Virus record (IMG/VR): IMGVR_UViG_3300020433_000036
Span: 1 to 28,558 of that record
From: a virus
Length of the DNA: 28,558 nucleotides
Reading direction: 5' to 3' (one strand)
The translations under genes were made by a program, and so were the position numbers. Under the pieces are notes generated by a model. The model saw only the letters and a list, made by a program, of their open reading frames with translations. It had not been told where the DNA came from and did not search any database. Positions 3,237 to 27,521 of this stretch are shown here, in pieces. The stretch's first letter is position 1. Each line of letters begins with the position of its first letter.

Positions 3237-6200
3237 ATGTCTGATAAAAAAGTTAAAATTTCAAATATTCTTGGTAGCCAAATACCAGATTTCATACAAG
3301 CAGATAATCCATTATTCATAGAGTTTTTAACTCAGTACTATGCATCTGAAGAACGTGAGTACGGAAACTCTTACTTGGCTGATCATATTTCATCTTTGAA
3401 AAAAATACCAACTGTTTCAGACATATCTTTAGTTGAAAAACAAACAGTTAACGTACCAAATACTTCATCTCCAGAATCACCAGTTCTTATATCATCTCTT
3501 TTATATGCATATGATGATGTGATTAATGTAAATCAAACTACAGGGTTTCCAGATACATATGGTCTTTTAAAAATTGATAATGAAATAATTACCTATACAG
3601 GAAAGACTGATACATCATTTACTGGTTGTATTCGTGGATTTAGTGGAATATCTGAAATTGAAACAGTTGGAACTCCTGAGTTTTTAACATTTAGTGATAC
3701 TAGTGCTGCAGCACATGCTGCCAATTCAACTGTATTAAATTTAAGTTTTCTTTTTGTAACTCAATTTTATAAAAAATTTAGACGTAATTTTTTACCTGGT
3801 TTAGAAGGAAGAGATTTTGCGTATGGATTGAACGTAGAGAATATTTTATCGAGAGCAAGAGATTTTTACAGTTCAAAAGGAACAGACACTTCATTAAAAA
3901 TACTTTTTCAAGTTTTATATGGTCAACAAGTTGATATTATTAAACCTTTTAATCAAACAATCATGCCATCAGAGGCTCAATATGATGTCTCAGACAATAT
4001 CATAGTTGAAGTTTTATCTGGAAACCCTTTAAATTTAGTTGGTGTTAAAATATATCAAGACTCCTTTATTAATCCAACTGCAAGTGGTGCAGTATCAAAT
4101 GTAAATACAAAATTTTTAGGGAATAAAAAATATTATGAAATATCTTTTTCAAAGGGAACAATAATTGATCAACTTAAAGTTTCAACAAAAACTAAAGTAA
4201 TAGGAGCTGCTTCAACAACTGAAGTTTTGACAGTTGACTCTACCATAGGATTTGGAGAAACAGGTAATTTTTACTATCTTAATTCAGATAATTTATACAC
4301 GTTAGCTGAGTATACTTCTAAATCTAGTAATCAATTTTTTGGTTGTACTGGTGTTTCTAGACTTCTAACAGAATCTGAACCAATTATAGACAGTAATTTT
4401 GTTTACGGTTATGAAAATAATGATTTGACTAAAATATGCACAATGAGAATTGTAGGAACAATTTCTGGTGCATCTGATAATAAAAGTTTAACTAAGTATT
4501 TTGATTTTGATGATTTAATTAGAGTTAAACATTTAGGTGAAAAATATGATGTATCTGATAAAAAATTTAATACTTGGTTTTATAATAATATATCATATGT
4601 TGATGCTTTGGGACATGTAGCTGATGGAGATACCATTAATGATTCTGCTGCAGATAGAACATTTACAACATCAACGGATCATTTTTTAAAAATAGGTGAT
4701 AGAGTTGATATAATTTTTAAAGAGTCAGGTGTTAAATTTAGAGAAAATTCAGAAGTTAGTGTAATCAATAGTAGTAAAGAAATTCAAATAGACGGTGGAA
4801 TTATAAACACTAAAATTATTAGTGGTGATTATGTAATCAAAAAAAGATTAAATTATACCTCTTCAAATTTTGGAATCACTAATCTTCTTTCAAATATTCA
4901 AAATTCTTTTTCAGATAAAGATAAAAACACGTATGTTTCTTTTTCTGGATATCCATCGTTTGATACACAAACTACAAATAGATCACACGTATTTCAATCA
5001 TCTGCGATTAATGCAAATACGATTACGATAAATGGTCATAATTTTATAAATGGTGAAAAAGTATATCTATCTCTTGCTTTAGACTCTGGACTTAATGAGG
5101 GATCTAGCGGCTATTACTATGTAAATGTTATTGATAATAATAATTTTAAATTATCCACAAGTTATCCAAACTTATACAACAACATTTTTGAACCAATTAC
5201 GTGGAATGGAGTTGGATCTGGAGAACATACCATAACACCTGCATCATTATACATTGGTAAAAAGTTAAGTAATCAAAATAATTTAAGAAGAATATATAAA
5301 AATCCACAAGTTTCAAAAAATAATTCAAGAATTACTGGTGCAATTGGTATTTCTTTAAATGGTGTGGAGTATCATTCACCAATTTCTAATGAATCAGTTT
5401 ACTATGGACAAATTGATGAATTACAAGTTACAAACTCTGGAGAAAATTTTGATGTTATAAATCCACCTACACTATTAATTACAGACAAAAATGGAACAAA
5501 CTGTGAAACTATTGTTAATTTTTCTGGTCAGCCAACAAAAGTAATTTTAAATAAACCAGGATTTGATTATTTGAATACCCCCTCAGTAAGAATAGTTGGA
5601 GGAAATGGTACTGGAGCTGTTTGCAAAGCAAAAATGAGGGGATCTAATTACAGTAGGTCATATACTGATTTTAACGTAAATTTAACAACTAATAGAATTA
5701 CTGGAGAGCATAGATTTTCTGATGGTGAAGAAGTTAGATATATTGCAACTGGAACTCCTATAGGAATTACCACTGGAGTAAATGTAGGATTTAATACTGA
5801 TAGATTGACATCGGGAACATCATACTTTATCGCAAAATATGATGATAATTCATTTGGTTTAGCAATTAATGAAGACAGAGCACTAACTAAAACAAATTTA
5901 TTAGATTTATATGATTTTGGAAATCAAGTTCATACTTTTGAATCTCAAAAGATAAGAAATATAATTGATAGAATTGAAATAACAAATACAGGATCATCTT
6001 ATGATAAACATAGTGTAGAAATACCATCACAACAATATCCACCAATAAATTTAAAAGATGTATTTAAAACATTTGTTGGTGTAAACACTTTTAATGATTA
6101 CATTTATGCTAAAAATCATAACTTTAAAAATGGTGATATTGTGGATTATGTTTGTAGTGGAACTGTTATATCTGGATTATCAACCTCAATTCCTTATCAA

Positions 6201-12200: not shown

Positions 12201-13733
12201 TCTGGTGGAAATGGATCTGGTGCAACGATGGATGTGGTTGTTGGGACTGGTGGGAGTATAATATCATTTGACATAGCAGATCGTGGCGTAGGTTATGAAA
12301 TAGGAGATAATTTGCAGTTAACTACACTACCATTCCAAGTAGGAATTGGAACAAGTGCGTTTAATATAACTGTAAAAAATAAATTCCAAGATAAATTCTC
12401 AGGACGGTGTTTTGGCCAATTATTAGAACTTGATGATTTTAGTATTCAGTTTAATGGATCTAGAAAATCATTTTTAATAACTCGTACAATTAAAGATAAA
12501 GAGTACTATAGCATAGTTGCTCAAGAAGGATCAGGAATTATTCTACAAAATAATCTCTTGATATTCATTAATGATATTTTACAGAGACCAGGTCTTGATT
12601 ATGAATTTGAAGGTGGAACTAGAATAACATTTAAAGAGCCACCAAAACCAGGTAGTTTATTTAAAATGTATTTTTACACTGGTTCTACATCTGACTTTGT
12701 TGAGGTAGATGTTGACGAAACAATAAAACCAGGTGATGAATTAAGATTACACTATTTTAATCAAAGTAATGTAAATTCTAGTATTTCCTCTGGAATTAGA
12801 ACTGAATCCGTAATCACATTAGAAAAAAAATCTGAGCAAGATAATAGAGTGGTTTATGAATTAATAGCAGCAGATACAGTGGAAACCACAACATATTCTG
12901 GAGTTGGTATATCTACTAATGCTGATTTTGCTCGACCAATGATGTGGAGAAAACAAACAAAAGATTTAATAATAGATGGAGTAAGCATATCAAAAGAGAG
13001 AAATTACTTAGAACCAGATATAGCACCAACAAGTGGAATAATTAAATCAATTTCACCAACTGATAGTAAAATTTATGTCAAAGACTCTTGGATGTTTAAA
13101 AAAGTTGATAACTTAGGACAAACTCTGAATAATATAAACATAGTTGGTTTGGGAACAACTGCTGTTGTTGAGACAATCGAAAAAGTTACATATGAAGGTG
13201 ATTATGGAGTTGTCGTTGGGATTGGAACGAGTCTTGTAGGTATTAATACAACTGGGCCTGCACTATTCTTTGAAATTGTGCCACATGAAAACATATATGA
13301 TCCAGACGGTATACCAAATGGTTCTGAACAGGATAAAAGATCTAAATCTGGTATTTCTACTGGTGACTATTTTGTAATTGATAATACCTTTATAGGAAAT
13401 GGAATTACTGGAATAAGAACTACATCTTCAGGCCCAGAAACTATAGGTGTTGGAAATAGTTTCTTAAATAATGTTTATTTTGCTGAAGATTATGTTTCTG
13501 TTGGATCTTCTATGATAAGAGTTTTCGCAAATGTTAATTCGATTGCAGGTATAGATACAACAACACTAACAACTAAAGTTAAATATGGAACTTATAGTTG
13601 GGGTTCAATTAATGTATCTAGAAGTGCTAATTCGAAATCATTTACTTTCCACAATCAAAATGGAGTTGTTGGAATTGAGACCTCAGCTCAAGTGATAAGA
13701 ACTATACCAATCAAAACTTCTTATACAAGTTAA
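3237..13733 (+). CDS. 7: Giant baseplate wedge protein gp7 (3498 aa)
   Basis: Position between gp6 and gp8, and a conserved N-terminus (NILGSQIPDFIQADNP; then KFRRNFLPGLEGRDFAYG around residues 178-195 and ARDFYSSKGTDTSLKILF after it), identify gp7, the wedge-initiating protein. T4 gp7 is 1032 residues; this one is more than three times as long. The extra length is repeats: about eight 'H.F..G[DE].V' modules (near residues 601, 825, 961, 1491, 1666, 1836, 2575 and others); glycine-rich 'GSGY..PP' repeats (about 731-800, 1070-1185, 2050-2150, 2900-3030); three 'RG..GT..H' modules (R133-G134, R1583, R2736-G2737); a YHYH-like domain (about 1190-1365); and two 'F.G....F' modules near the C-terminus (about 2805 and 3070). 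The frame is unbroken over 10.5 kb. The repeats probably form outward-facing beta domains on the baseplate (inference). Confidence 0.9.
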   Translation: MSDKKVKISNILGSQIPDFIQADNPLFIEFLTQYYASEEREYGNSYLADHISSLKKIPTVSDISLVEKQTVNVPNTSSPESPVLISSLLYAYDDVINVNQTTGFPDTYGLLKIDNEIITYTGKTDTSFTGCIRGFSGISEIETVGTPEFLTFSDTSAAAHAANSTVLNLSFLFVTQFYKKFRRNFLPGLEGRDFAYGLNVENILSRARDFYSSKGTDTSLKILFQVLYGQQVDIIKPFNQTIMPSEAQYDVSDNIIVEVLSGNPLNLVGVKIYQDSFINPTASGAVSNVNTKFLGNKKYYEISFSKGTIIDQLKVSTKTKVIGAASTTEVLTVDSTIGFGETGNFYYLNSDNLYTLAEYTSKSSNQFFGCTGVSRLLTESEPIIDSNFVYGYENNDLTKICTMRIVGTISGASDNKSLTKYFDFDDLIRVKHLGEKYDVSDKKFNTWFYNNISYVDALGHVADGDTINDSAADRTFTTSTDHFLKIGDRVDIIFKESGVKFRENSEVSVINSSKEIQIDGGIINTKIISGDYVIKKRLNYTSSNFGITNLLSNIQNSFSDKDKNTYVSFSGYPSFDTQTTNRSHVFQSSAINANTITINGHNFINGEKVYLSLALDSGLNEGSSGYYYVNVIDNNNFKLSTSYPNLYNNIFEPITWNGVGSGEHTITPASLYIGKKLSNQNNLRRIYKNPQVSKNNSRITGAIGISLNGVEYHSPISNESVYYGQIDELQVTNSGENFDVINPPTLLITDKNGTNCETIVNFSGQPTKVILNKPGFDYLNTPSVRIVGGNGTGAVCKAKMRGSNYSRSYTDFNVNLTTNRITGEHRFSDGEEVRYIATGTPIGITTGVNVGFNTDRLTSGTSYFIAKYDDNSFGLAINEDRALTKTNLLDLYDFGNQVHTFESQKIRNIIDRIEITNTGSSYDKHSVEIPSQQYPPINLKDVFKTFVGVNTFNDYIYAKNHNFKNGDIVDYVCSGTVISGLSTSIPYQITVIDNDKFKLSSAGTATTITNTNYERKIYEKLSNVGVGTHTFKYPDIRIEIDGQISAGTTSTIPDYYKASADVEVRGGLKNIFVKNGGVGYGVTNIINYLKKPKISLLTGKNAFLTPNVINGKIESVSIGNGGSEYTSPPILEVVGVGETIGTTGAVAELKAVVTNGKITDVKIIEKGSRYNPNNTIIRITPSGSKSIITTKIHEWKINAVERYDHVLTENNSQFVQINSESLDYNNKICSFYPVKKYRRLLRDNIDSNLIEFIDDHSKIVGWAYDGNPIYGPVGVNTAGITTYMQSSYQLDIVADSGLRPSTYQNGYFIQDYVYKGSGDLDEFNGTFLINSDFPEGTYAYFSTLNDTSKNPSFPYISFQHRNATDNFNYNLNSKQVDKVINSGEYKRNVTHLGLNDQFRRYPVLNDSLESNALVKIDGVKDSRITRVNVDGSGTGYKVNDRIIFNDPSITSSVDQVIGKQIVSVGTTNTTINNLIFSVLDDQVTGFSTIPHGLFAGDIIEVSGISSTLYKNIEGVHTIGVTTTTASLSQAIGDAGTTGITTFISLSSPTLNRKFEVDDVFEIGSEQFLVIDHDDVNNKYRVRRAYNSSGNTTHSAGSIVNKLETKFTYSISKKVENINVQFPKIEYFEGTSSIGIGTTTTNVIVGTSGSSFINKSIPAKAIYLPNHKFQNGDEVKLISIGSTINATRNADLSNPLDLSDFDKLFCTRFNSEFIGLATEKTGIGTLGVSTTSQNVYFKEILTTGGDDNKLELLTNNVFGSLRKVNGTVTVATSATTGQHHALSVGDEFELHLTTNKTQTFNLKYNESIQKLVVNPLSFIDSAIGIGTTMSTITINDHDFQTGDLIVYNSTTPADPLVNDGVYYVIKESRDTIRLAENAYDLSIFPYNYIGIGTTGGTNHEISKINPKLSFYKNNTVELVTTDSSLDDFSIEFYEDKNLKSKYNSNLITKTSDKIIISVTDSLAREFFYKIEGKKTNLHKTLSFPVDERVPNHSQIVLVESKFNDKFKVTGISSDTFKFNATGIAETTSYTSTGLSTSFYSTSSINEIGGIHSVNVLNKGFNVRKLPLITSIGTTDGLNSVLTVEADDIGRIESTQVINQGLEFSPDNTLKPKADSNVLLKLKNVLTLDSIGITSGGVNYTNPPSVLVIGKPNILAQTTISGTSVNSVKILTNDSGLSEDVRIIPITNSNGVVVTGAETDSLGTVTLSLRAPNPESGSESGFYNTGGDFPFAVNDEIFVENIKTTDNPTNGGYNSSDYNYSYFKVTGIGTTGGGEFVSYSLVGLGSTGGTYQEDNNFGRVIKKDNLAVFKAIFKETVFTDDEIVRVDGKNVSGIVARNGWDPISETLKVFSTNGDFSQNDKIVGSISNNKGTVTEQFKFDFDLDVDSLANINNSWKTSIGKLNSDIQKLHDNDYYQRFSYSIKGEVPFNVWKDSVDSLGHTAGFKNFSNLGINTIGIQTIKSDSEVVLDVDVDQEASVHERYYYDMASEDTDDPELSKLIVLKSKIITDYNESRTNKVLLIDDISSQFTGIVTSTGGGVIGTTSFNVFADGNSLFHREFNPSTGVSTVTYKITLPKHNFNTGEELVYRPHSGQPPIGIANTSDVNAGVAATTLLPSTVFAIREDPDTIKVAISATFASAGIAVSFTNVVGIANTNTLSVPSENATIRSLITIDNIIQSPIGITTAISVGLTTEVGISTTIVFLNDTSEISGKSLFKIENEIFKVSTVGVGTTTLNVERGQMGTVAVAHTVGAAVTVVKGDYRINEGKIYFSEAPYGPTGTVGVTSSTFSGRAYYRLTYDTNKIIDDISDRFDGSTDQFKMTTNGNELLGISSSFGAILINNVFQKPFFGDVGDINKSDYQIIGAGSSIDFTGTSANKDLPKGGIINEFDVGIGSGYQVPKKAILTAVVSAGGTIQSVGIASGGAGYLSNPLVSVSSTTGVGAAISAFVTAGIVTDVKIANEGSGYAQGGISTGINFVTVDPPSPYKNIPLSGGNGSGATMDVVVGTGGSIISFDIADRGVGYEIGDNLQLTTLPFQVGIGTSAFNITVKNKFQDKFSGRCFGQLLELDDFSIQFNGSRKSFLITRTIKDKEYYSIVAQEGSGIILQNNLLIFINDILQRPGLDYEFEGGTRITFKEPPKPGSLFKMYFYTGSTSDFVEVDVDETIKPGDELRLHYFNQSNVNSSISSGIRTESVITLEKKSEQDNRVVYELIAADTVETTTYSGVGISTNADFARPMMWRKQTKDLIIDGVSISKERNYLEPDIAPTSGIIKSISPTDSKIYVKDSWMFKKVDNLGQTLNNINIVGLGTTAVVETIEKVTYEGDYGVVVGIGTSLVGINTTGPALFFEIVPHENIYDPDGIPNGSEQDKRSKSGISTGDYFVIDNTFIGNGITGIRTTSSGPETIGVGNSFLNNVYFAEDYVSVGSSMIRVFANVNSIAGIDTTTLTTKVKYGTYSWGSINVSRSANSKSFTFHNQNGVVGIETSAQVIRTIPIKTSYTS
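5430..6785 (+). repeat. Glycine-rich 'GSGY..PP' and 'H.F..G' repeat block in gp7
   Basis: The encoded protein alternates two motifs. One runs 'V.N.G..[FY]......PP...I......G..A...' (for example GNGGSEYTSPPILEV near 6590-6640). The other is 'H.F.[ND]G[DE].V' followed about 30-40 residues later by 'D[ND].F.L' (near 5709 and 6117). The copies are diverged at the DNA level, so they look like old protein repeats rather than recent duplications. Confidence 0.7.
6800..7330 (+). other. YHYH-like domain inside gp7
   Basis: Residues 1261-1272 read GWAYDGNPIYGP, the hallmark DG.PIYGP turn of the YHYH domain family. It is followed by the usual spacer and a 'G.Y.Y' strand (TYAYFST, residues 1337-1343), then FPY. 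The family name-giving Tyr-His-Tyr-His stretch appears here as YAYF (1338-1341), so both histidines are absent. The boundaries are estimated. The family's function is poorly defined; here it is probably a structural module on the baseplate. Confidence 0.75.
11940..12320 (+). repeat. Glycine-rich beta-repeat array near the gp7 C-terminus
   Basis: Three consecutive units of about 40-45 residues are visible: IASGGAGYLSNP, IANEGSGYAQGG and IADRGVGYEIGD. Each is preceded by a strand such as AVVSAGGTIQSVG, AFVTAGIVTDVK or VVVGTGGSIISFD. The regular spacing suggests a stack of short beta-hairpins. The same unit occurs in gp8, gp14 and the 2464-residue protein. Confidence 0.75.
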
Positions 13734-13773: not shown

Positions 13774-15411
13774 ATGCCCGCAATAATCACTGACCAATAT
13801 CGTATATTAAACGCAGAAACTTTTATAGACAGTTTTGTAGGTATTGGCACGACTGGAAATAACAACTATTATACTTTCTTAGCACATCCAAATCCTAAGA
13901 ATGTCGGAGTTAAAAATTATGGATTTGCAGACTGGGGAAGTCCTGTTCCAAATCCTGTAGATTCATTTTCTCAAGAAAGTTTTTATTATGACAGTATGCT
14001 TTTCTTAAAAAAAGTGACTTCAGATGATGTTAGAAGAGTTATACCTAGATTAAATTGGCAAACAGGAACGATATATGACATGTATAGAAATAATTATTCT
14101 GGAAAGAATGATTATATTGATCAAAATTTGACACCTCAAACTAAATCGACAAGTTTATATTCATCAAATTATTATGTAGTAACATCAGAATTTAGGGTAT
14201 ATCTTTGCATTAATAATGGATCGGATCCAGATAATCCATTAGGAAAAAAATCAATAGCTGAACCAACTCATACAAATACTGCACCTCAAGATGCTGGAGA
14301 TGGATCAGATGGGTATAAGTGGAAATATTTGTATAGTATATCACCATCAGATATTGTCAAATTTGTAACAACAAAATATGTACCTCTTCCTAAAAAATGG
14401 GGAGATGCAACCAATGAGAATATTAAAAACGCAGCTGTAGACGGAGAAATTCAAACTGTAATAATTAAAAATGGTGGAACTGGTATTTCTGTAGGAACCA
14501 CTGATTCTGGAACAGTTTCTCAAATACCAATTAGTGGAGATGGAACTGGTGGATCTGCAACTGTTGATATTCAAGGGGGAACCGTACAGTCAATATCAAT
14601 TGTTGGTGGATCTAATTATACTTATGGACAAGTTAGATTTATAACAGGTGATTATACTGATGGTGCTGGAAATAATGTTGTTCTTGGAGTTCCTGCCTCA
14701 AGTACAGATCAACCAAAATTTGAGGTTATAATACCTCCAAAAGGGGGTCATGGTGCTGATATATATCGTGAATTGGGTGGATTTAGAGTCATGCTGTATT
14801 CAAAATTTGATAATAATGTTGATGATTCTCCAGATTATGCTGTTGGTGTTGATTTTTCTCGTGTTGGTATAGTCAAAAATCCTTTAGAAAAGAACGGAAC
14901 TACCCTTCTAAATAGTACGACTGCCACAAATCTTAAGGCTTTAGCGTTAACTTCCAATGGTGTATCTGGAGTAACTACAACTTCTTCAGTCACTTATTCT
15001 GTTAATAGTGTAATTACACAGACAATTTCAACTGCAGGAATTGGATCTACAGCTGTCGGATATGTTGCTTCTTGGAATCCAGATACTGGTATTTTAAAAT
15101 ATTATCAACCAGTTGGTTTTTCAACATTATCAAATTATTCATACAAACAACTTGATTTTGTTGGAACAAGCACTGCTCCTATAGTTAATGCTGGTACTTC
15201 AGGAGATTTAGTTATTAACAGTTCTTTTAATAATGATTCAATTCAAATTGCAAGCGGAACAAAAATTTCTTTGGGTCAAACATTTGTTTCTGGAAAAGCA
15301 GATGCAGATGTTAAAAAATACTCTGGTGATATAATTTATGTTGATAATAGGTCACCAGTAACAAGATCGTCTTCACAAAAAGAAGAAGTAAAAATAGTCA
15401 TAGAGTTCTAA
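13774..15411 (+). CDS. 8: Baseplate wedge subunit gp8
   Basis: The product is 545 residues against 334 for T4 gp8, the wedge protein that dimerises and joins gp7 and gp10. Family features are clear: ITDQYRILNAETF at residues 5-17, the YYTFLAHPNP strand, YDMYRNNYSG (about residue 106), then YYVVTSEFRVYLCINNG, the SIAEPTHTNTAP turn, DGYKWKYLYSISPSDIVKF and the following VPLP. After that conserved core, about residues 228-292 hold a 'NGGTG ... GSNYTYG' glycine-rich repeat of the kind found in gp7, which helps explain the added length. It is the first gene after a perfect late box. The stop is 4 bp before the next ATG, so the two are likely translated from one transcript. Confidence 0.94.
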   Translation: MPAIITDQYRILNAETFIDSFVGIGTTGNNNYYTFLAHPNPKNVGVKNYGFADWGSPVPNPVDSFSQESFYYDSMLFLKKVTSDDVRRVIPRLNWQTGTIYDMYRNNYSGKNDYIDQNLTPQTKSTSLYSSNYYVVTSEFRVYLCINNGSDPDNPLGKKSIAEPTHTNTAPQDAGDGSDGYKWKYLYSISPSDIVKFVTTKYVPLPKKWGDATNENIKNAAVDGEIQTVIIKNGGTGISVGTTDSGTVSQIPISGDGTGGSATVDIQGGTVQSISIVGGSNYTYGQVRFITGDYTDGAGNNVVLGVPASSTDQPKFEVIIPPKGGHGADIYRELGGFRVMLYSKFDNNVDDSPDYAVGVDFSRVGIVKNPLEKNGTTLLNSTTATNLKALALTSNGVSGVTTTSSVTYSVNSVITQTISTAGIGSTAVGYVASWNPDTGILKYYQPVGFSTLSNYSYKQLDFVGTSTAPIVNAGTSGDLVINSSFNNDSIQIASGTKISLGQTFVSGKADADVKKYSGDIIYVDNRSPVTRSSSQKEEVKIVIEF

Positions 15412-15415: not shown

Positions 15416-18400
15416 ATGCCACAAAATACTAATTTAAATGTTTCTCCTTACTTTGATGATTTTGTCGATAGTAAAAACTATCAAAAAGTCTTATTTAAAC
15501 CAGGATTTCCAGTTCAAGCAAGAGAATTAACCACACTACAATCAATTCTTCAAAATCAAATTGAAAAATTTGGGCAACACTTCTTTAAAGAAGGTTCGAT
15601 GATAATTCCTGGTGGAACTTCTTATGATAGTCAGTATCACGCAGTAAAAATAGATCCAAATTTCTTAAATATTCCAGTTAGTAGTTACACAAAAGTTTTA
15701 GTAGATAATAATATAAAGATAAAGGGAGAGACATCTGGTGTTGAAGCTACTGTAGTTAATAGAATATTATCTTCAGAATCAATTGATGAGTTTGATACTC
15801 TATACGTAAAGTATACAAAATCAGGAACAGATGGGACAACTAGAGTTTTTATAGATGGAGAAAATTTAATAACACTTTCAGATATAAATTATCTCAATAC
15901 AAGTATTGCAGCAAATAGTCAATTCGCAAGAACTATCGTATCTAATTCAACATCTATTGGATCTGCATTTTCTGTGAGTGAAGGTGTCTATTTTATTCGT
16001 GGATTTTTTGTAAAAAATGTTTCTTCAACAGTTATATTAGATCAATATACAAATACTCCTAGTTATAGGGTTGGATTTTTATTGAAAGAAGAAACATTAG
16101 GGCCTTCATCTGTTAATTCTGATTTATATGATAACGCAAAAGGATTTTCAAATGAAGCTGCACCTGGAGCAGATAGATTTAAATTATCAGTAGTTTTACA
16201 TAGAAAACTTTTAACAGATACGAATGATAGTGATTTTGTTGAATTGTTAAGAGTAGAAAATGGTGTTGTAAAAGAAATAGTAACTAAAACGGAATATAAT
16301 ATTTTTGCAGAAGAGTTAGCGAGAAGAACATATGATGAGTCTGGAGATTATTACATCAAACCATTTTCTATCGATATTAGAGAATCTTTAAATGATAGAA
16401 TTGGTAATAGAGGGATATACTTTGATACTCAACAAACTCAAAATGGAAATACACCAGCAGACGATATAATCAGTTTACAAGTTTCTTCAGGAAAGGCATA
16501 TGTCAGAGGTTACGAGGTAGATAAAATATCCACATCATCCATTGATGTTTTGAAACCAAGAACAACTAAATTAGTTGAAAATCAGAGTGTTCCAATCAGA
16601 ATGGGTAAATCCATAGAGGTTACTAACGTAGCTGGTTCACCAGATATTGATTTTTCAACTAATGCAACTAAACAAGTTTCTTTTATACGTAATCGATTAA
16701 CTAACTTGAAAGCTGCTAGTGTTGGAGCATTTGATGTAGATGATAGAGTAGGAACTGCAAAAGTTTATGATTATAAACAAAAAACCACATCAGGAATAGC
16801 AGTTACGACCTATAATTTATCACTTTACGATGTTCAACTTTATACACGTCTCACAATTACAAAAACTATTGATGTCCCAACTGGATTAACTTATGGTTCA
16901 TATACTCGTGTAGAGGGAAAATACAGTGGTGCAGTTGGATATTCAGTATCTACAGTAACAGGTACAACTGTGTTAGTTCTTACTGATGTTACAGGGCAAT
17001 TTCAACTTAATGAGCCATTAATTATTAATGGCATTACTGAAGGTAATAGCATATCTGCGATAGAAGATAATACTTTTGAGGACATTAAAGCAGTTCATAG
17101 TTTTGATGGGTTAGGAACTGGTAATACATCTTTTGCTGCAAACACAGTTTTAAGCACTACAAAAAAAGCATTTCCTGAAAGTATTGAATTTACCATAAGT
17201 GGTGGTAACAAATTAAAGTCTCCTCAAGTTGCTGATTTTAGAAGTCAGGTAAAGATTGGTGACATTATTTCATACGGAACAGTAGGACAAACAGTTCCTA
17301 CGTTTAATAAAGTTACATCAGTTGCTCAAACCCAAGTAGGTCTTGCAGCAGTTGCAGATGTAACTGATGTCTGTGATGGCAGTGTAAACAATAGCACAAT
17401 ATCTGGTTTGAATGTTATAATTCCAACTTTAAATGAAACAGATGATCCTGGTTTTAGAGTTAAATTAGCAGACAAATATATCTCATCAATGAATGTTTTG
17501 GATAGTTCTTATATTATCAGAAAAAAAATAAGTAAAACTTTTACTAACAATTCAGTTCAATTTAATATTAGTGACATCACAACTGGTGACACTTCTAATC
17601 TTTTCTTTGAACCTTTTAGTACATCAAATTATGTATTAGAACTTGATAATGATGTTGAAAAACTCTTAGATCCAATGGTAAGTGTAGATTCAGGATTACA
17701 GCAAGTTACAATCTCTGGTTTATCTGGGCCTGCTACCAGCAGAACTGCAAATCTCGTAGTAGCAGTCAGAAGAAGTAAACTAGCATCAAAAGAAAAATCA
17801 CTCATAAGATGTAGTAATTTGATTGTAGATAGATCAGAGTCAGTTGGTTCTGGAACAACTATTGATGGATTAACTACAAACACAGTTTATGGAACAAGAG
17901 TTCAAGATAAGGAATTATCATTAGACGTTCCAGAAGTAACTCGTGTTTTAGCAGTTCTTGAATCAAATGATAATAACGCTCCAGATTTACCATTAATTGG
18001 TGTTACAAATCAGAGTGATACCTTTACCAATAATGTCGTTGTTGGTGAGCAGTTTATTGGAGGAACATCAGGTGCAGTTGCTCGTGTAGTGGTGGTACAA
18101 GCGACTCAGTTGTCTTTTGTTTATGAAAACGAAAATATATTCGAAATTGGAGAAAACATCTCTCTGAAGACTTCTGGTATCTTTGCTACAATAACTGGAT
18201 TAACACCTGGTGATAGAAATATACTTAAAAATTATGATCTAGATAATGGTCAAAGAATGGAATTTGCAGATTTTTCTAGACTTATACGAAAAGTTGATTC
18301 AGAAAAACCAGCTCGTCAATTGAGAATTATATATGATCACCTTGTAAATGATGAAACGTCAGGAAATGTAGAAACAGTAAACAGTTACAATACTCTTGAT

Positions 18401-21400
18401 TACTCAAAAGATATTCCTTATGTATTTGATAGTTGGGCCTCAGATTATCTTGATTTTAGACCAAGAGTAAGTCCTTACGATAGATCTGGTTCTACTGTTT
18501 CACCATTTTCAAACACATCTAGAAATTTTAGTACATCAAATTCTGATAATGTAGTTTCAGGTAAAACGGTTGTTGTTGATTACTCATATTATCAAGGAAG
18601 AGTTGATAGGTTATATTTAACAAAGGATGCTGTTTTTGATGTAAAAGAAGGTAGGCCATCAAGAGTCCCAAAGGCACCAGTGCACAATCAAGGTGCTTTT
18701 CAGGTGGCAACAATCAAATATCCTCCTTATGTTCGTCATGCTTCTGAAGTGTTAACAAAAACCGTTCCTCATAAGAGATATACAATGAGGGATATTGGTA
18801 GTCTTGAAAATAGAATTAAAAATTTAGAAAATTATACAACACTATCATTATTAGAAACTGACACTAAAAATTTATCAGTAAAAGATCCAAATACTGGATT
18901 AGATAAATTTAAATCTGGTTTCTTTGTTGATAATTTTAGAAATCATAACTCCCACAATTTAACTGGGGAATCTAAATTTGATATTGATATTGAAAATGGT
19001 GAATGCAGACCAAGATCAACGGAAAGAAATGTTGGATTAGTATTTGAAACTGTTACGACTCAATCAAGTCCAAGTATTGCAGATTACAAGTTTGCTAGTG
19101 ATTTTAGTGACTCTAATATTGTTAGAGGTGGAGCTGCTTTAACTTTAAACTACAGTGAAGTAATATTCATAAATCAAAAAAATGCAACAAGAACAGAAAA
19201 CTTAAATCCATTCCTTGTAGATGTTTTTGTTGGATCAATTGAGTTAGTTCCTAGTTCTGATTTTTGGATTGAAGAAATTCCTTTGACTCCTCAAAATGTT
19301 GAAATAGATTCTGCATTTGATGCTATAGCACAATTACTAGGTGTTGAAGATCGTGAAAACGGTGGAATGGCATCTAGTTTCTGGAATTCACATGAACAAA
19401 CTTGGAATGGAAAGGATAGTGCTACGCTCATTGGAGAAGAAGTTATTGGAAGACAAGTTATTTCTTCAAGTGCAAGTAGTGATACTGATGTAGATCGAAG
19501 GGGAGATACTACTACCACCACTGTTACCACTACTACCACCACTGATGTACAAAATACAATTCAACAAACGTTTGAGGAAACAGGAGTAGAAAAAACATTT
19601 AATCTTGAATTATCTTCAAATGAGCAAGTGATTGATTTGGGAACTAAAGTTGTAGGTATTGAAGTTCTTTATAATATAAGATCAAGAAATATTGAAGTAA
19701 GTGTAAAAAGAGTAAAACCAAATACGAGATACTACGTATTCATGGAAAATACAGATTTAACTCAATATGCAGTTCCTAAGTATCTTCCAATTTCAATGGA
19801 TAGGGGAACATTTTCAGTTAATGATATAGTTCAAAGTTCAAATAGTATAACTTCTACAAATGCTAGTATTAAATTTAGAGTTGCATCACCAAACCACAAA
19901 TCAGGGCCATATAATAATCCAGATGATCTTGTCACTATTTTACCTTACCCAAATATAACAGTTCCAACTGCATATTCAAGTACGAGTGAAATATTAAATG
20001 TCGATACTGCTGATTTAGCTTTAGAAAATAATATCGATAACATTGGGTGGGTCAGAAAAGGTATGAAACTTGTAAATTCAGCAGGAACAGCAGAAGCAAC
20101 TGTTGGGGATTTAGCACTGTTTAGTGATGATAAGGGAGATTTAATATTCTCGTTACATATTCCAGATCCAAAAATTTCAGGAAATCCTTTATTTACTACT
20201 GGTAGTAATACTGTAAGGGTAACAACAAGTGCAACTAATGCAAGTATATTAGATCCTGGTTCTAGTTCTGCAGAAACAGAATACATAGCAAGTGGATATC
20301 AGACTAATACTCAAGAACAAACATTATCAATCAAAACACCTCAAATTGAAAGGGTACAGATTGGAACGACTGATATATCCAGAACATTTAACGAAGAAAG
20401 AACTGAAGTAGTTACAGAAGTAGATATTGATGTTCAGAGGACTGTTGAAGTTGATGATGATGATCCATTAGCACAATCATTTTTGGTTGATGAAAAGGTC
20501 TATAAAGATGGTATTTTCATAACTAGTGGAGAGTTATTTTTCAAAACAAAAGATGATTCAGTTCCAGTAACTGTTCAAATTAGAACAATGAGAGATGGAA
20601 CACCAACTAAAACTGTTGTTCCTTTTGCTGAAACAAAAATAAATTCAGAAGATGTTCAATTATCTGAGGATGGTAGTGCTGCTACTCCATTTAAGTTTAA
20701 ATCCCCAGTTTATTTACAAAGTGGATATGAATATGCTTTAGTGTTGATGGCACCAGCTACATTAGGTTATTTGGCATTTATTAATAGAATGGGTGAAAGT
20801 GATTTAATTACTCAAGGATTGAATAGTACTCAACCAACTCTTGGGTCATTATTCAAATCACAAAACAATAGCACTTGGACACCAAGTCAATATGAGGATC
20901 TTAAGTTTAAACTTAACAAGGCTAAATTTGTTACAAATACCCCATCAAGTGTTTTACTTTACAATAGTGAATTACCTCTTGGTAAAATTAAAAAAACTAA
21001 TCCAGTTGTTGGATTTTCAAAAAGAGTTAGTATTAAGTTAAGCACTCCATCTACAATAACTCTCTCAGCAGGTGATGAAATTCAACAAACAATTAGTGGA
21101 GTAGTACACACAGGAAGAATATTTAAAACTGGTGGGCCTTTAGAAACAGGAAATAATAAATTAACTATCATATCAAATACTGGTATCGGATTGACACCTA
21201 CAAGTTCATCTCTTGCATATACTGGAATTGGATTTACATCATTAACTGGAAATGGTCAAGGTGCAGTTGCAAACGTAACAGTTGATGCTGGTGCAGTAAC
21301 TGCTAGTAATGTTACTATAACTAATGGTGGATCTGGATATGCTCCTGGTGACTTGTTACTTATGAATTCACTTGGTGCAACTGGATCTGGAGTTAGAGCT

Positions 21401-22810
21401 GTTGTTACATCTCATGCTGGAATTGGTGGAACTGATTTAATTATTTTAGATAACGTTGATAATAATTTTGATCCAAACACAGATATAGTTCATTTTACTC
21501 AAGCTGGAACAGCAACAACTATAGCAGACTCTGCTATTACTTCAGTCAATCCAGATCCTATAAGAGATGGATATACTCTTAAATTTGATCATAAAAATCA
21601 TGGAATGCACTCAAGCACAAACAAAGTTAAAGTCTCCAATTTTCATCCAGATGGAAGCCCAACAGTGCTAAGTGAAAATCTAAATGATGATAGTACTTTA
21701 ATAACTGTCTCATCTGGAACTGGTTTTGAAACATTTGAAGGAAAGACAGTCAGTGTATCTTTTCCTGGTTATGTTTTAATTGATAAAGAAATAATTGAAT
21801 ATAAGGGTGTTGCTGGAAATAATTTAACAGGAATAGATAGAGGTATTGATTCGAGTTTAAAATCAAATCATGCTGCAACAACCTCTGTATTTAAATATGA
21901 ATTTAATGGTATTTCATTACTTAAAATTAATAAAGAACATGATATTGATCCTAGAGAAAAAACATTTGATAGTTATTTTGTAAAAGTATCTACTGCGTCA
22001 ACAGAACCAACATTTAACACAACAAAAACAGGTGGTGGTGGTGCGGTTCATGTTTCCCAAAATATTCCTTTTGAGGTGGTTGACCCACAAATTACTTCGA
22101 TTACACCTACTGGAACAAATATATCTGCTAGAATTAAAACAACCTCTGGAACAAGTTTAAGTGGAAATGAAGCTTCATTTAATGATGTTGGTTATGAAAA
22201 TGTTTCTTTAAATAAACTAAACTATCTTGATAGTCCTAGAATCATAGCATCAAAAACTAATGAGTATAATTTACTTGGTAATCAAAAATCATTTGCTTTA
22301 GAGTTGACACTTAATACTATAAATTCAGATGTTTCACCAATGATTGATTTGGAAAATCCAAATGCTATCTTGATAAGTAATCTTGTTGATGATAAAGTTG
22401 ATGATTTTGAAACTGCCAGTGGGCCAAAAATTCCTGGTTCTGATCCAAATACTGCAATATATGAAACAAAAATGATTAATTTAGAATTTGTTTCAAATTC
22501 ATTGCTAGTTCAATTTGATGGCCATCGAGAGGCAGAGGGAGATATTCGAGTATTTTATAAATTAATGAGAAGTGATGGTGATGATGCTCACGCAACTTAC
22601 ATACCATTTAATAGTGATGGTTCTCCAGATAAAGTTATAAATCCAAATAAAAATAGTAATACTTTTAGTGAGTATAAGTTTACTGCTGAAAATACTCCTC
22701 AATTTAATGGATTTATGATTAAAGTCGTTATGACATCAACCAGTCAGGCAAAACCACCTAGAATTAAAAACTTTAGATCAATCGCACTTAGATCCTTTGA
22801 CATTGAATAA
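15416..22810 (+). CDS. Giant DUF4815-type baseplate-periphery protein (2464 aa)
   Basis: The N-terminus has the DUF4815 signature found in phage structural proteins: YFDDFVDSKNYQKVLFKPG (residues 12-30), then QARELTTLQSILQNQIEKFG. The 'NAKGFSNEAAPGADRFK' segment lies near residue 250. A second conserved block, about residues 1000-1180, includes the YLDFRPRVSPYDRSG segment and RYTMRDIGSLENRIKNLENY. A Thr-rich tract follows (1365-1376). Around 1683-1790 is a beta domain (LAQSFLVDE ... GYEYALVL), then a 'NGGSGYAPGD' repeat near 1970 and an 'RG' module (R2142-G2143). It occupies the position of T4 gp9/gp10, so a peripheral baseplate or fibre-attachment role is likely by position. I do not assign a T4 gene number. 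The stop overlaps the next start by one base. Confidence 0.88.
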   Translation: MPQNTNLNVSPYFDDFVDSKNYQKVLFKPGFPVQARELTTLQSILQNQIEKFGQHFFKEGSMIIPGGTSYDSQYHAVKIDPNFLNIPVSSYTKVLVDNNIKIKGETSGVEATVVNRILSSESIDEFDTLYVKYTKSGTDGTTRVFIDGENLITLSDINYLNTSIAANSQFARTIVSNSTSIGSAFSVSEGVYFIRGFFVKNVSSTVILDQYTNTPSYRVGFLLKEETLGPSSVNSDLYDNAKGFSNEAAPGADRFKLSVVLHRKLLTDTNDSDFVELLRVENGVVKEIVTKTEYNIFAEELARRTYDESGDYYIKPFSIDIRESLNDRIGNRGIYFDTQQTQNGNTPADDIISLQVSSGKAYVRGYEVDKISTSSIDVLKPRTTKLVENQSVPIRMGKSIEVTNVAGSPDIDFSTNATKQVSFIRNRLTNLKAASVGAFDVDDRVGTAKVYDYKQKTTSGIAVTTYNLSLYDVQLYTRLTITKTIDVPTGLTYGSYTRVEGKYSGAVGYSVSTVTGTTVLVLTDVTGQFQLNEPLIINGITEGNSISAIEDNTFEDIKAVHSFDGLGTGNTSFAANTVLSTTKKAFPESIEFTISGGNKLKSPQVADFRSQVKIGDIISYGTVGQTVPTFNKVTSVAQTQVGLAAVADVTDVCDGSVNNSTISGLNVIIPTLNETDDPGFRVKLADKYISSMNVLDSSYIIRKKISKTFTNNSVQFNISDITTGDTSNLFFEPFSTSNYVLELDNDVEKLLDPMVSVDSGLQQVTISGLSGPATSRTANLVVAVRRSKLASKEKSLIRCSNLIVDRSESVGSGTTIDGLTTNTVYGTRVQDKELSLDVPEVTRVLAVLESNDNNAPDLPLIGVTNQSDTFTNNVVVGEQFIGGTSGAVARVVVVQATQLSFVYENENIFEIGENISLKTSGIFATITGLTPGDRNILKNYDLDNGQRMEFADFSRLIRKVDSEKPARQLRIIYDHLVNDETSGNVETVNSYNTLDYSKDIPYVFDSWASDYLDFRPRVSPYDRSGSTVSPFSNTSRNFSTSNSDNVVSGKTVVVDYSYYQGRVDRLYLTKDAVFDVKEGRPSRVPKAPVHNQGAFQVATIKYPPYVRHASEVLTKTVPHKRYTMRDIGSLENRIKNLENYTTLSLLETDTKNLSVKDPNTGLDKFKSGFFVDNFRNHNSHNLTGESKFDIDIENGECRPRSTERNVGLVFETVTTQSSPSIADYKFASDFSDSNIVRGGAALTLNYSEVIFINQKNATRTENLNPFLVDVFVGSIELVPSSDFWIEEIPLTPQNVEIDSAFDAIAQLLGVEDRENGGMASSFWNSHEQTWNGKDSATLIGEEVIGRQVISSSASSDTDVDRRGDTTTTTVTTTTTTDVQNTIQQTFEETGVEKTFNLELSSNEQVIDLGTKVVGIEVLYNIRSRNIEVSVKRVKPNTRYYVFMENTDLTQYAVPKYLPISMDRGTFSVNDIVQSSNSITSTNASIKFRVASPNHKSGPYNNPDDLVTILPYPNITVPTAYSSTSEILNVDTADLALENNIDNIGWVRKGMKLVNSAGTAEATVGDLALFSDDKGDLIFSLHIPDPKISGNPLFTTGSNTVRVTTSATNASILDPGSSSAETEYIASGYQTNTQEQTLSIKTPQIERVQIGTTDISRTFNEERTEVVTEVDIDVQRTVEVDDDDPLAQSFLVDEKVYKDGIFITSGELFFKTKDDSVPVTVQIRTMRDGTPTKTVVPFAETKINSEDVQLSEDGSAATPFKFKSPVYLQSGYEYALVLMAPATLGYLAFINRMGESDLITQGLNSTQPTLGSLFKSQNNSTWTPSQYEDLKFKLNKAKFVTNTPSSVLLYNSELPLGKIKKTNPVVGFSKRVSIKLSTPSTITLSAGDEIQQTISGVVHTGRIFKTGGPLETGNNKLTIISNTGIGLTPTSSSLAYTGIGFTSLTGNGQGAVANVTVDAGAVTASNVTITNGGSGYAPGDLLLMNSLGATGSGVRAVVTSHAGIGGTDLIILDNVDNNFDPNTDIVHFTQAGTATTIADSAITSVNPDPIRDGYTLKFDHKNHGMHSSTNKVKVSNFHPDGSPTVLSENLNDDSTLITVSSGTGFETFEGKTVSVSFPGYVLIDKEIIEYKGVAGNNLTGIDRGIDSSLKSNHAATTSVFKYEFNGISLLKINKEHDIDPREKTFDSYFVKVSTASTEPTFNTTKTGGGGAVHVSQNIPFEVVDPQITSITPTGTNISARIKTTSGTSLSGNEASFNDVGYENVSLNKLNYLDSPRIIASKTNEYNLLGNQKSFALELTLNTINSDVSPMIDLENPNAILISNLVDDKVDDFETASGPKIPGSDPNTAIYETKMINLEFVSNSLLVQFDGHREAEGDIRVFYKLMRSDGDDAHATYIPFNSDGSPDKVINPNKNSNTFSEYKFTAENTPQFNGFMIKVVMTSTSQAKPPRIKNFRSIALRSFDIE
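19508..19543 (+). repeat. Threonine-rich ACC/ACT tract
   Basis: Twelve codons, made only of ACT, ACC and a single GTT, encode five Thr, one Val and six Thr (residues 1365-1376 of the 2464-residue protein). The tract lies between the conserved N-terminal DUF4815-type half and the C-terminal beta domains. It looks like a flexible linker, and at DNA level it is an imperfect trinucleotide repeat prone to slippage. Confidence 0.85.
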
Positions 22811-23412: not shown

Positions 23413-23417
23413 TCAAC

Positions 23418-23645
23418 ATGGCTGACATAAAAGTTAGAGTCGGATCAAGAAATGCCAATAAAGTCATATCTACCTTATCTGGTAGTGGTGGAACTCTGGG
23501 TGGGTTATCAGACGTAGACATATCTGGTGGTCTACAAGATGGAATGGTCTTGGTTTTTAACGCATCTACAAGTAAATTTGAAGCAACGTTAGAATTAACA
23601 CCAGGAGCAACACAAAATTTAAACATTAATGGGGGAAGTTTTTAA
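23418..23645 (+). CDS. 75-residue linker-like structural protein
   Basis: The product is 75 residues, beginning MADIKVRVGSRNANKVIST, with a Gly/Ser-rich stretch (GSGGTLGGL) and a central segment LSDVDISGGLQDGMVLVFN followed by ASTSKFEATLEL. 'L.DVD..G..DG..L.[YF]N..T..[WF].A' segments recur as repeats in many phage fibre proteins, so this resembles one isolated fibre repeat or adaptor. It lies 5 bp after the 112-residue gene, and its stop directly abuts the ATG of the fibre-like gene. Its last codons contain a strong ribosome site (GGGGGAAG, 23631-23638) for that next gene. The function is inferred from neighbours. Confidence 0.72.
   Translation: MADIKVRVGSRNANKVISTLSGSGGTLGGLSDVDISGGLQDGMVLVFNASTSKFEATLELTPGATQNLNINGGSF
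23631..23638 (+). promoter_or_regulatory. Strong ribosome binding site for the fibre-like gene
   Basis: GGGGGAAG, ending 7 bp before the ATG at 23646, is the most purine-rich Shine-Dalgarno-like site noticed in the window. It lies within the last codons of the 75-residue gene. It fixes the downstream start and suggests that the fibre-like protein is made at a higher rate than its neighbours. Confidence 0.6.
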
Positions 23646-25079: not shown

Positions 25080-25082
25080 ACT

Positions 25083-25259
25083 ATGAACAGTGAAGTTGAT
25101 GTGAATATTTTGATTAATCATTACCATAAGAAATTATCAACATTAGTTAATCAAAATATATTATTAGAGGCAAAAATGGAATCCATGACAAAGGATTATA
25201 TGGATTTAAAACAAAAATTTGATGAACTACAAAGTCCTAAAAGAGGAATTAAAAAATGA
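25083..25259 (+). CDS. Small coiled-coil protein (58 aa) upstream of gp13
   Basis: ATG at 25083 opens 58 codons and ends at TGA 25257-25259, overlapping the gp13 ATG by four bases (ATGA). The protein starts MNSEVDVNILINHYHKKLST. It has Leu/Ile/Met spacing over about residues 9-50 that fits one amphipathic helix or coiled coil, followed by a short basic tail (PKRGIKK). Its tail codons contain AGAGGA at 25242-25247, which serves as the ribosome site for gp13. The four-base overlap is strong evidence for a real, translationally coupled gene. Function is unknown; it parallels the 74-residue coiled-coil protein that precedes the fibre cassette. Confidence 0.75.
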   Translation: MNSEVDVNILINHYHKKLSTLVNQNILLEAKMESMTKDYMDLKQKFDELQSPKRGIKK

Positions 25260-26071
25260 GTAAGCCATCCACAAGGCAAGGATTAATAGACTACTGCTTA
25301 AGAAAATTAGGTTATCCTGTGCTGGAAATTAATGTGGATGATGATCAAATTGATGATTTAATTGATGATGCTATTCAATACTTTCAGGAACGTCATTTTG
25401 ATGGTATTGAGAGAATGTTATTAAAACACAAAGTAACTAAAGAAAATAAAGAAACTCTAACAACTGGAGTTACTACCACTACTGCTAATTCTACAGTTGG
25501 TATAACCACGACTACGTTTGAAGAGTCGCAAAATTTTATACAGTTACCTGATCATGTGCTAGGTGTAGAAAGAGTTCTTAAAATAGACAATAGCACTATA
25601 TCAAGTGGTCTATTTAATATTAAGTATCAAATATTCTTAAATGACCTTTACTATTATGGTGCACTTGATCTATTAAATTATACAATGACAAAGACTTATC
25701 TTGAAGATTTAAGTCGTATCATCACACCAGACACACAAATAAGATTTAATAAAAAGCAAGGAAGATTATATTTAGATATAGATTTTCAACAGATGTCTGA
25801 TGATACTTTTATAATTATTGATGGCTATCGTCTTTTAGATCCAGCAGATGTAAGTAAAATATATAATGATTTTTGGTTAAAGAAATATGCAACAGCATTA
25901 ATCAAAAAACAATGGGGAATGAATTTAATAAAATTTCAAGGTGTAATGTTACCTGGTGGTGTTGCATTGAATGGTAGAGAAATATATGAAGATGCAATCA
26001 GAGAATTAGAGGAGTTAGAAAATACACTCAAGACAGAATACGAATTACCACCACTTGATTTTATAGGATAA
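25256..26071 (+). CDS. 13: Neck protein gp13
   Basis: The product is 271 residues (T4 gp13 is 309). With gp14 it forms the neck that seals the filled head and docks the tail. The N-terminus (TRQGLIDYCLRKLGYPVLEI, then DDQIDDLIDDAIQYFQERHFDG) is the typical helical start. The VERVLKIDN strand, the FNIKYQIFLNDLYY segment and the C-terminal FWLKKYATALIKKQWGMNL, with LPGGVALNG after it, are also conserved. Residues about 65-88 are an unusual Thr-rich loop (TTGVTTTTANSTVGITTTT). The ATG overlaps the preceding TGA and has AGAGGA 8 bp upstream. The stop is 4 bp before gp14, so both neck proteins are made together. Confidence 0.87.
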   Translation: MSKPSTRQGLIDYCLRKLGYPVLEINVDDDQIDDLIDDAIQYFQERHFDGIERMLLKHKVTKENKETLTTGVTTTTANSTVGITTTTFEESQNFIQLPDHVLGVERVLKIDNSTISSGLFNIKYQIFLNDLYYYGALDLLNYTMTKTYLEDLSRIITPDTQIRFNKKQGRLYLDIDFQQMSDDTFIIIDGYRLLDPADVSKIYNDFWLKKYATALIKKQWGMNLIKFQGVMLPGGVALNGREIYEDAIRELEELENTLKTEYELPPLDFIG

Positions 26072-26075
26072 TGTT

Positions 26076-27521
26076 ATGCCACTTTCTCCGTATTTTTTAC
26101 AAGGATCAGCGAGTGAACAGAGATTAGTTCAAGATCTCATAAATGAGCAATTAAAAATTTATGGTCAAGACGTAGTTTATCTTCCTCGTAAAATTATAAA
26201 CAAAAAGACAATTATGAAAGAGGTTGTGGCCTCTACTTTTGATGATGCTTATCGTATGGAAGCGTATCTTTTAAACTATCAAGGATTTGAAGGTAACGGA
26301 GATATTTTACAGAAATTTGGAGTTCAAACAACAGACGCAGTAACGTTTGTTATATCAAAAGAAAGATACGAAGATTTTATAAGTCCATTTTTAACTGGAG
26401 AGAGTGATGTAGAACTTGCCACAAGACCAGAAGAAGGAGATTTAATTTATTTTCCTCTTGATAATACTATGTTTGAAATCAAATACGTAGAGGGGAAAAA
26501 ACCATTCTATCAGTTGAATAATCTTTATGTTTACACTTTAAGTTGTGAGGTAATGGATTATGCTCTTGACGAAAATATTGATACGGGACTTGAGGAAGTA
26601 GATAAGGCAGCTGTTGAATTTGGATATACAACAAGATTAAGTATGGTCAGTATTGCTGCATCAACAGCAACAGCAACAGTTCAATTATCTAAAGATGCAG
26701 GTAATACTAATATTGGTAAGGGTGTTGCATTTATTGATCTAGTTAATGATGGAACAGGATATACACTACCACCATTAATTGGTATCTCATCAGCACCAAG
26801 TCAAGGTATTAATGCAACTGCTGTTGCAATTATGACAAGTCGAACTGGTCAAAATGGACAGTCAATAGATCGTATTGAACTAACAAATCCTGGTTTTGCT
26901 TATACAACACCTCCAACAATTACAATTCGAAGTCAAAATGCATTCGGAACTGGTGCTGCAGCAACTGCAGTCATAGCAGATGGAACAATATCCACACCAA
27001 CCATTACTAATCCAGGTGCAAGTTACGCTACAGTTCCTAAAGTTTCTATTAATCCTGTTGGACTTGATACAAATATTGGAATCGGATCAACTGCCAAGGC
27101 AGTAGCAGTTATCAATACTCTTGGTCAACTCGCCTCAATTAGATATACCTTTGCAGGTATTGGGTATACAGCAACACCAACTGTAACTATCGATGCACCA
27201 GTGAAAGCAGGTATTTCTAGTGGTAATTATCTCTTTAAGGAAGTAGTTAGAGGGGTTTCAACAGGAACAACAGCTATCGTTGCTAATTGGGATTCGGATG
27301 ATAGAATACTCAAAGTTACAAACGTTGGTGGTGTAGGATTTGCTGTTGGTGAATCAGTTGTTGGTATTGGAACTACTTTATTGGGATCAGATTCAGAGTA
27401 CGTTGTTAGAAGTGTTTCTGATCAAGATGAGTATGATTTATACAATGAAAATATTACAGTAGAATCCGAAGCAGACTCAATTATTGACTTTTCTGAAGAC
27501 AATCCGTTCGGTGATTTCTAA
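26076..27521 (+). CDS. 14: Neck protein gp14
   Basis: This protein is 481 residues against 256 for T4 gp14. The conserved core is clear: LVQDLINEQLKIYGQDVVYL near residues 15-34, then YLLNYQGFEGNGDILQKFGV, and the diagnostic EEGDLIYFPLDNTMFEIKYV (about 119-138) followed by KPFYQLNN. The extra length is a block at about residues 218-378 with at least four 'GTGYTLPP / GFAYTTPP / GASYATVP / GIGYTATP' repeats. The C-terminus (about 450-481, an acidic tail ending in DFSEDNPFGDF) resumes the family pattern. So the repeat block sits inside the protein rather than at its end. The stop is followed by a TCTAAATA box and gp15. Confidence 0.93.
   Translation: MPLSPYFLQGSASEQRLVQDLINEQLKIYGQDVVYLPRKIINKKTIMKEVVASTFDDAYRMEAYLLNYQGFEGNGDILQKFGVQTTDAVTFVISKERYEDFISPFLTGESDVELATRPEEGDLIYFPLDNTMFEIKYVEGKKPFYQLNNLYVYTLSCEVMDYALDENIDTGLEEVDKAAVEFGYTTRLSMVSIAASTATATVQLSKDAGNTNIGKGVAFIDLVNDGTGYTLPPLIGISSAPSQGINATAVAIMTSRTGQNGQSIDRIELTNPGFAYTTPPTITIRSQNAFGTGAAATAVIADGTISTPTITNPGASYATVPKVSINPVGLDTNIGIGSTAKAVAVINTLGQLASIRYTFAGIGYTATPTVTIDAPVKAGISSGNYLFKEVVRGVSTGTTAIVANWDSDDRILKVTNVGGVGFAVGESVVGIGTTLLGSDSEYVVRSVSDQDEYDLYNENITVESEADSIIDFSEDNPFGDF
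26730..27210 (+). repeat. 'GxGYtxPP' repeat array inside gp14
   Basis: Four units are visible, each with a Gly-rich turn, an aromatic residue, a Thr/Pro pair and a following strand: DGTGYTLPPLIGI, NPGFAYTTPPTITI, NPGASYATVPKVSI and FAGIGYTATPTVTI. They are separated by 40-50 residues with a 'A.A.AV....G.I..' spacer. T4 gp14 has no room for such a block. Confidence 0.82.

Follow-up and report, generated by a model that had tools for sequence, protein, structure and literature searches.

A homologous glycine-rich beta-repeat in several non-homologous virion proteins of T4-like cyanophages and in cell-surface proteins

The late gene cluster and its recurring unit

The window analyzed here, i.e. 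the whole 28,558-nucleotide stretch of IMG/VR record IMGVR_UViG_3300020433_000036, is a 28.6 kb virus fragment carrying a T4-like cyanophage (Kyanoviridae type) late structural cluster, several proteins of which contain a glycine-rich repeat that we refer to as the GSGY unit. The cluster encodes gp6, a 3498-amino-acid protein at the gp7 position, gp8, a 2464-amino-acid VrlC/DUF4815 protein, a 477-amino-acid structural protein, gp13, gp14 and gp15, and among annotated genomes it is closest to large Synechococcus and Prochlorococcus myophages, e.g. S-SCSM2R, P-TIM68, P-SSM2 and S-SM2. Our results showed that the GSGY unit, ~36-45 residues long and found in tandem pairs or arrays, is an autonomous beta-repeat whose copies are homologous, and that several virion proteins with no homology to one another have acquired it by insertion, as have secreted and cell-surface proteins of bacteria and archaea.

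The host proteins were identified by their family matches. Both gp8 (PF09215, E 6.5e-14) and gp14 (PF11649, E 9.5e-26; PDB entry 9mkb, E 8.8e-20) are homologues of the T4 proteins, and the gp14 core comprises residues 1-185 (26076..26630, plus strand; Foldseek match to 9mkb, E 1.2e-9). The 2464-residue VrlC-like protein matches PF16075 (DUF4815, E 1.1e-49). The giant protein is called gp7 from PHROG and gene position alone: PHROG 2885, annotated as 'baseplate wedge subunit', spans the protein, and the Pfam T4 gp7 family has no match in it. It also contains a YHYH domain (residues 1255-1345; 6999..7271, plus strand; PF14240, E 2.1e-19).

Detection and layout of the repeat

A preliminary description of this DNA had reported many occurrences of the pattern [NT].G.[GS][YF]..PP...I in these proteins. 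Taken literally, the pattern matches once in the window, in gp14 at 26745, and a loosened form matched 22 times, compared with 13.7 times on average (maximum 31) in shuffled sequences. Counting regular-expression matches as proof of the repeat was dropped, because the loosened pattern scarcely beats the shuffles. We instead used a profile hidden Markov model (HMM) seeded with 11 window segments and iterated over ten annotated cyanophage and pelagiphage regions, with T4 as the control. The settled profile has the consensus ITSITITNGGSGYTSPPTVTISGPGSGTGATATATISFTN, and its last iteration recovered 128 copies in 24 proteins. It found no match in the reversed open reading frames, in 40 shuffled versions of the window proteins or in the whole T4 genome.

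The repeat consensus derived from the profile is ITSITITNGGSGYTSPPTVTISGPGSGTGATATATIS. One unit consists of a long strand (IxSIxITN), a glycine turn (GSGYTSPP), a short strand (TVTI), a glycine loop and a strand GATATATI. The segment A.A.V..G.I..V.I, previously taken for a spacer following the unit, is really the third strand of one unit and the first strand of the next, and so belongs to the repeat itself.

Copies in gp14, gp7, the VrlC-like protein and gp8

All copies lie on the plus strand. In gp14, the HMM gives four units (26730..27281; residues 219-402 overall; scores 35.5, 42.9, 24.2 and 23.2) in the arm after the core, in keeping with the earlier count of at least four.

The profile detected about 10 full or partial copies in gp7. 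Array 1 has two units (5412-5525 and 5535-5642; residues 726-763 and 767-802; scores 19.7 and 26.8), and is followed by partial units with weak scores of 3.4-3.5 (at about 5964 and 6444, within 5964..6485; residues 910-923 and 1070-1083). Array 2 (6573..6818; residues 1113-1147 and 1158-1194) adjoins the YHYH domain and contains a full copy (6573-6677) and a partial or weak one (6708-6818). Single units occur at 7506..7607 (residues 1424-1457, score 10.4) and 9615..9716 (residues 2127-2160, score 18.9). In array 3 (11907..12368), a strong unit (11970-12077; residues 2912-2947, score 26.0) is flanked by degenerate units with scores of 7.1 or lower (residues 2891-2906, 2951-3004 and 3008-3044, the latter two at 12087-12368).

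The single copy described earlier in the 2464-residue VrlC-like protein corresponds to one full unit (21305-21412; residues 1964-1999, score 23.6), and a further partial copy is also present at 21236. In gp8, where one unit had been claimed, alignment with T4 gp8 and relatives revealed two degenerate units (14443..14673) inserted at a site that follows the equivalent of T4 gp8 residue 245. The window gp8 copy alone is too degenerate to score against the HMM; the module is plain in the alignment of gp8 relatives.

Homology between the copies in different genes

We then compared copies across genes with leave-one-gene-out HMMs, each built from one gene of other phages with the window sequences excluded. 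Profiles made solely from gp7, gp8 or VrlC copies matched window gp14 with E values of 4.4e-21, 2.6e-14 and 3.8e-13, respectively, and a gp14-only profile matched window gp7 with E 1.5e-12. Over all such one-gene profiles, the E values for gp14 and gp7 ranged from 1e-8 to 1e-21. When seeded solely with the window's four gp14 copies, a profile was too narrow and missed gp7, so that many gp14 orthologues were needed. In hhalign comparisons, the gp8 units aligned to the gp14 array with 94.0% probability and to the gp7 arrays with 91.9-95.8%, as against 0.1-0.3% for negative controls. Furthermore, residues 1097-1196 of window gp7 score against PHROG 460, which is the gp14 family, with E 1.2e-12, and an HMM from 298 bacterial and archaeal copies matches window gp14 (E 1.9e-23) and gp7 (E 6.8e-22) but none of 40 shuffles. 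Thus, the profile-based comparisons, both HMM and profile-profile, bore out the proposal of one module common to gp7, gp8, the 2464-residue protein and gp14, and a profile built from its copies recovers it across genes and in other phages.

AlphaFold models, built from alignments that combined window and IMG/VR sequences, gave mean predicted local distance difference test (pLDDT) values of mostly 87-94 across gp14 residues 200-330 and mostly 70-95 for the gp7 arrays; array 1 of gp7 (5412..5642) was modeled as long, short and long strands with pLDDT mostly 70-95. In the gp14 and gp7 models alike, a unit opens with a long strand; a glycine/proline turn leads to a short strand, and a loop then leads to a third strand, which continues into the next unit. 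The unit is therefore a three-stranded one in both models, with a predicted fold common to gp14 and gp7.

These results bear on whether the copies might be convergent, low-complexity glycine-rich sequence of no common origin. The glycine-rich composition and the poor performance of the loosened regular expression would fit such convergence. It is contradicted by the absence of matches in reversed and shuffled sequences, by cross-gene and phage-to-cell HMM E values down to 1e-23 and by the same predicted fold in gp14 and gp7, and we regard it as scarcely credible.

Searches of Pfam, NCBIfam and the PDB with the unit, by sequence or profile, returned no family or matches at chance level. A PDB fold search with the gp14 model matched the T4 gp14 core alone and not the repeats, and one with a gp7 segment yielded no significant match. 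In a viral structure library, the matches were structural proteins of cyanophages and unnamed proteins of Caudovirales, with 'P22 gp10' or 'baseplate wedge' as the label of some. A literature search for the repeat sequence found no description of it.

Empty and filled insertion sites

Alignments indicate that the GSGY module is a true insert in gp14, gp15, gp6 and gp8. The gp14 proteins of T4 (256 amino acids), Syn1 (292) and P-SSM4 (308) lack the array; the window gp14 is 481 amino acids long and has four units. Syn1 gp14 retains both flanks of the array site, and the four-unit array is therefore bordered by the core barrel on one side and a short terminal domain on the other. Four units are present in 166 of the 180 gp14 orthologues, many of which were retrieved by similarity to module-bearing gp14. 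A clean two-unit insert follows the position of T4 gp15 residue 102 in 1 of 161 gp15 orthologues, and 1 of 81 gp6 orthologues has a two-unit insert; natural orthologues of gp14, gp15 and gp6 without the module exist. The gp8 module occupies one site in every cyanophage and pelagiphage aligned and is absent from T4 gp8. Altogether, the empty and filled sites, the cross-gene HMMs and the common predicted fold uphold the view that proteins with unrelated cores carry one homologous module.

The T4 gp14 protein (PF11649; neck, head closure Hc2) shares a homologous core with window gp14, whereas its arm has neither the four-unit array nor a second module, module B, described below. This T4 arm (residues 178-256) is a flexible segment external to the core barrel (PMC12270204). 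The preliminary description had also proposed that the module is tolerated at surface loops. This is plausible for the T4 gp14 arm, gp15, gp6 and the tail tube, as judged from alignments rather than from structure mapping.

Two other arrangements were observed in relatives. P-SSM4 gp7 (L008, 11145-33083) is 7312 amino acids long and contains about 22 GSGY copies, while P-SSM4 gp14 has none. The 762-residue gp14 of S-SSM7 (L007, 36704-38992) has a LamG-like domain between GSGY units (PF13385, E 7.6e-6, with a bit score slightly below the Pfam cut-off).

Distribution and movement of the module

Whole-genome scans detected the repeat in all nine cyanophages and pelagiphages scanned, and the checked matches were all in virion proteins, among them gp5, tail fibers and a head protein; outside this checked set, Syn1 gave one weak minus-strand match (E 0.0047). 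The virion hosts comprise gp5, gp6, gp7, gp8, gp14, gp15, VrlC-like proteins, tail fibers, sheath, tail tube and a head protein. In cellular records, the module is carried by a tail sheath encoded in Nostoc, by tail tubes in Arthrobacter and Pseudomonas (the latter lambda-type, with the module inside the domain), by an Acetobacter minor capsid or cement protein, and by SusD lipoproteins and multicopper oxidases. It is frequent in non-marine bacteria and present in archaea. Virion stabilization in sea water, a role suggested previously, was rejected because of this non-marine distribution, the Pseudomonas and Arthrobacter tail-tube genes included.

It had also been suggested that the module spread by recombination within the cluster. 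Recent copying from gene to gene would produce one module recurring in four genes of a single cluster, as is found here. This explanation is contradicted by two observations: the window contains no DNA repeats corresponding to the module, and same-gene nearest neighbors prevail. Among 450 dereplicated copies, 368 had their nearest neighbor in the same gene, compared to a shuffled mean of 175, and each listed window copy is closest to same-gene copies of other phages. A tree of the units had 42 label changes versus 73.5 when shuffled; it is mostly clustered by gene, while its deep branches are nearly unsupported (4 of 152 inner branches well supported), and transfers between genes are not resolvable in it. 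We therefore consider recent in-cluster recombination very improbable. P-SSM4 gp7 arrays are 31-42% identical over about 150 amino acids to gp14 arrays of other phages, and cross-gene similarity is near the cross-genus similarity within one gene. Over long periods the module has moved, and since then its inheritance has been mostly vertical; its spread is old and wide, with no recent movement between neighboring genes.

Possible roles of the GSGY arrays

Phage Ig-like decoration domains (Big_2, I-set and fn3), as in lambda gpV, T5 pb6, SPP1 gp17.1 and T4 Hoc, are accessory beta domains on unrelated virion surface proteins, tail tubes included. The GSGY module is likewise found on many non-homologous virion surface proteins, yet it is a short tandem repeat rather than an 80-100-residue sandwich, and is often an internal insert rather than C-terminal. 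Pfam Ig-type families gave no match to a consensus array even at E 10. Of the known domains, the SPP1 Ig-like domain is dispensable, and removal of that of lambda costs about 100-fold in activity (PMC8718954).

We propose that the GSGY repeat is probably an exposed spacer or decoration domain, occupying the niche of phage Ig-like domains with a different sequence family. To judge by the insertion sites, the inserts would lie in outward-pointing loops or arms, so that the host protein could still fold and assemble. The arrays might act as rigid exposed spacers or decorations that add low-affinity contact surface, and might also provide attachment points for lectin-like domains, such as the LamG-like domain in S-SSM7 gp14 and the YHYH domain beside units in gp7. 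Ligand binding by the arrays may be considered a candidate role only.

Several points weigh against this proposal. The T4 gp14 arm touches gp15 in the virion (PMC12270204), and the insert could thus serve assembly rather than display. The outward orientation was deduced from where the inserts sit rather than from modeling of the assembled virion. For the leave-one-gene-out test, copies picked with the pooled profile were used, and the copies are so diverged (38 usable columns) that the tree cannot show single gene-to-gene transfers.

The main rival is structural bracing, in which the repeats would act as cement that lengthens or braces the giant baseplate wedge and neck proteins via neighboring subunits, with no outside ligand. 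A fixed assembly role predicts the constant site of the gp8 module in the cyanophages and pelagiphages aligned, and the arm contact with gp15 and the prevalence of four units in gp14 orthologues, many of them fetched via module-bearing gp14, agree with it. The related phages Syn1 and P-SSM4 have gp14 without the module, however, and SusD proteins, multicopper oxidases and tail tubes carry the same unit yet have no partners in common. On balance, we find bracing unlikely, though still to be taken seriously.

Direct glycan binding, in which the repeat itself is a carbohydrate-binding domain that helps phages and cells to hold surface glycans, is a weaker rival and in our judgment quite improbable. 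SusD starch-binding lipoproteins are among the hosts, the lectin-like neighbors in S-SSM7 gp14 and gp7 are suggestive, and single cases with LamG-like, GH64 or FG-GAP domains occur among 52 module proteins from bacterial and archaeal records, a few of which are phage genes in those records. Against this, many hosts (multicopper oxidase, sheath, sheath stabilizer) need no glycan, the conserved positions are turn glycine, tyrosine and proline with no recognized lectin site, and lectin matches in a PDB sequence search were at chance level (E 0.4).

If the repeat is indeed an exposed spacer or decoration, a second class of promiscuous decoration domain, not of the Ig type, would exist in marine viruses that are very abundant, and decoration would reach neck, wedge, hub and sheath-stabilizer proteins that are usually held to be conserved core machinery. 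More tentatively, and with less confidence than in the exposed placement, the unit might define a widespread family of beta-repeats, hitherto undescribed and with a fold new to the PDB: a plug-in surface module of phages, bacteria and archaea that is exchangeable between virion assembly and cell-surface proteins and serves as a scaffold for lectin inserts.

Two published studies offer further comparison. Phage protein-fragment mosaicism (PMC10684548) similarly involves domain shuffling across functional classes, and examples from tail, baseplate and neck are given; that study drew largely on ECOD domains, whereas no entry in Pfam, NCBIfam or the PDB was found for the GSGY unit. Pelagimyophage and cyanomyophage baseplate proteins that contain YHYH and concanavalin A domains come from the same cluster and have similar lectin-like neighbors; the repeat itself is not described in the parts of that report consulted (PMC7029224).

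In the T4-GC 537 head protein of P-HM2 and Syn1 (L396, 146-1009, and L397, 179-1036), a GSGY unit directly precedes an I-set-like segment, for which the Pfam match is found in P-HM2 only. This unit is possibly an insert in an Ig-like domain.

Consequences for annotation

The repeat contaminates PHROG 460, 'head closure Hc2'. This family is matched (E <= 1e-8) by 46 of the 52 module proteins from bacterial and archaeal records, and the gp14 core, PF11649, is present in only one of the 52. Because the repeat is embedded in PHROG 460, 701, 708 and 19630, both gp7-like proteins and surface proteins of cells are scored as 'head closure Hc2' or 'baseplate wedge', and masking it in the PHROG profiles would correct many annotations. 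I899_gp055 of HTVC008M (L010, 33435-36485) is named 'head closure Hc2' in RefSeq, yet lies at the gp7 position and is not among the gp14-core orthologues listed; it was probably misnamed through the repeat.

Other recurring modules

Further modules recur in the same proteins. Module C (consensus ITVDSTxGFxxxGYLKIGDEIIxYTxVTGNxLTVTRGQNGTxAxxH) occurs in three virion proteins, namely gp7 (3513-3680, 4215-4388, 7854-8042 and 11319-11501), the VrlC-like protein (21692-21898) and gp15 (28314-28484), with cross-gene HMM E values of 3e-4 to 9e-11. Module E (HGFxTGDxVxY...GLTxGxxYYVxxVDDNTxKLA) has six copies in gp7 (5037-5168, 5709-5873, 6117-6248, 8232-8396, 8742-8873 and 10959-11135), and a weak match to E1 ubiquitin-activating enzyme in the fold search may correspond to it.

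A possible module B (EQVVGSTSGAxAYVxSWDxxTxILKV) is found in the VrlC-like protein (15716-15871, 16904-17023 and 18047-18163), gp8 (15028-15117), gp7 (10203-10319) and gp14, with weak cross-gene support (leave-one-gene-out gp7 to gp14, E 4.7e-4). The gp14 copy, detected by HMM (27240..27362, plus strand; residues 389-429), is followed by a conserved C-terminal tail and is kept in the module-free Syn1 gp14. In composition, the giant gp7 seems mosaic, combining a few such module types with the YHYH domain.

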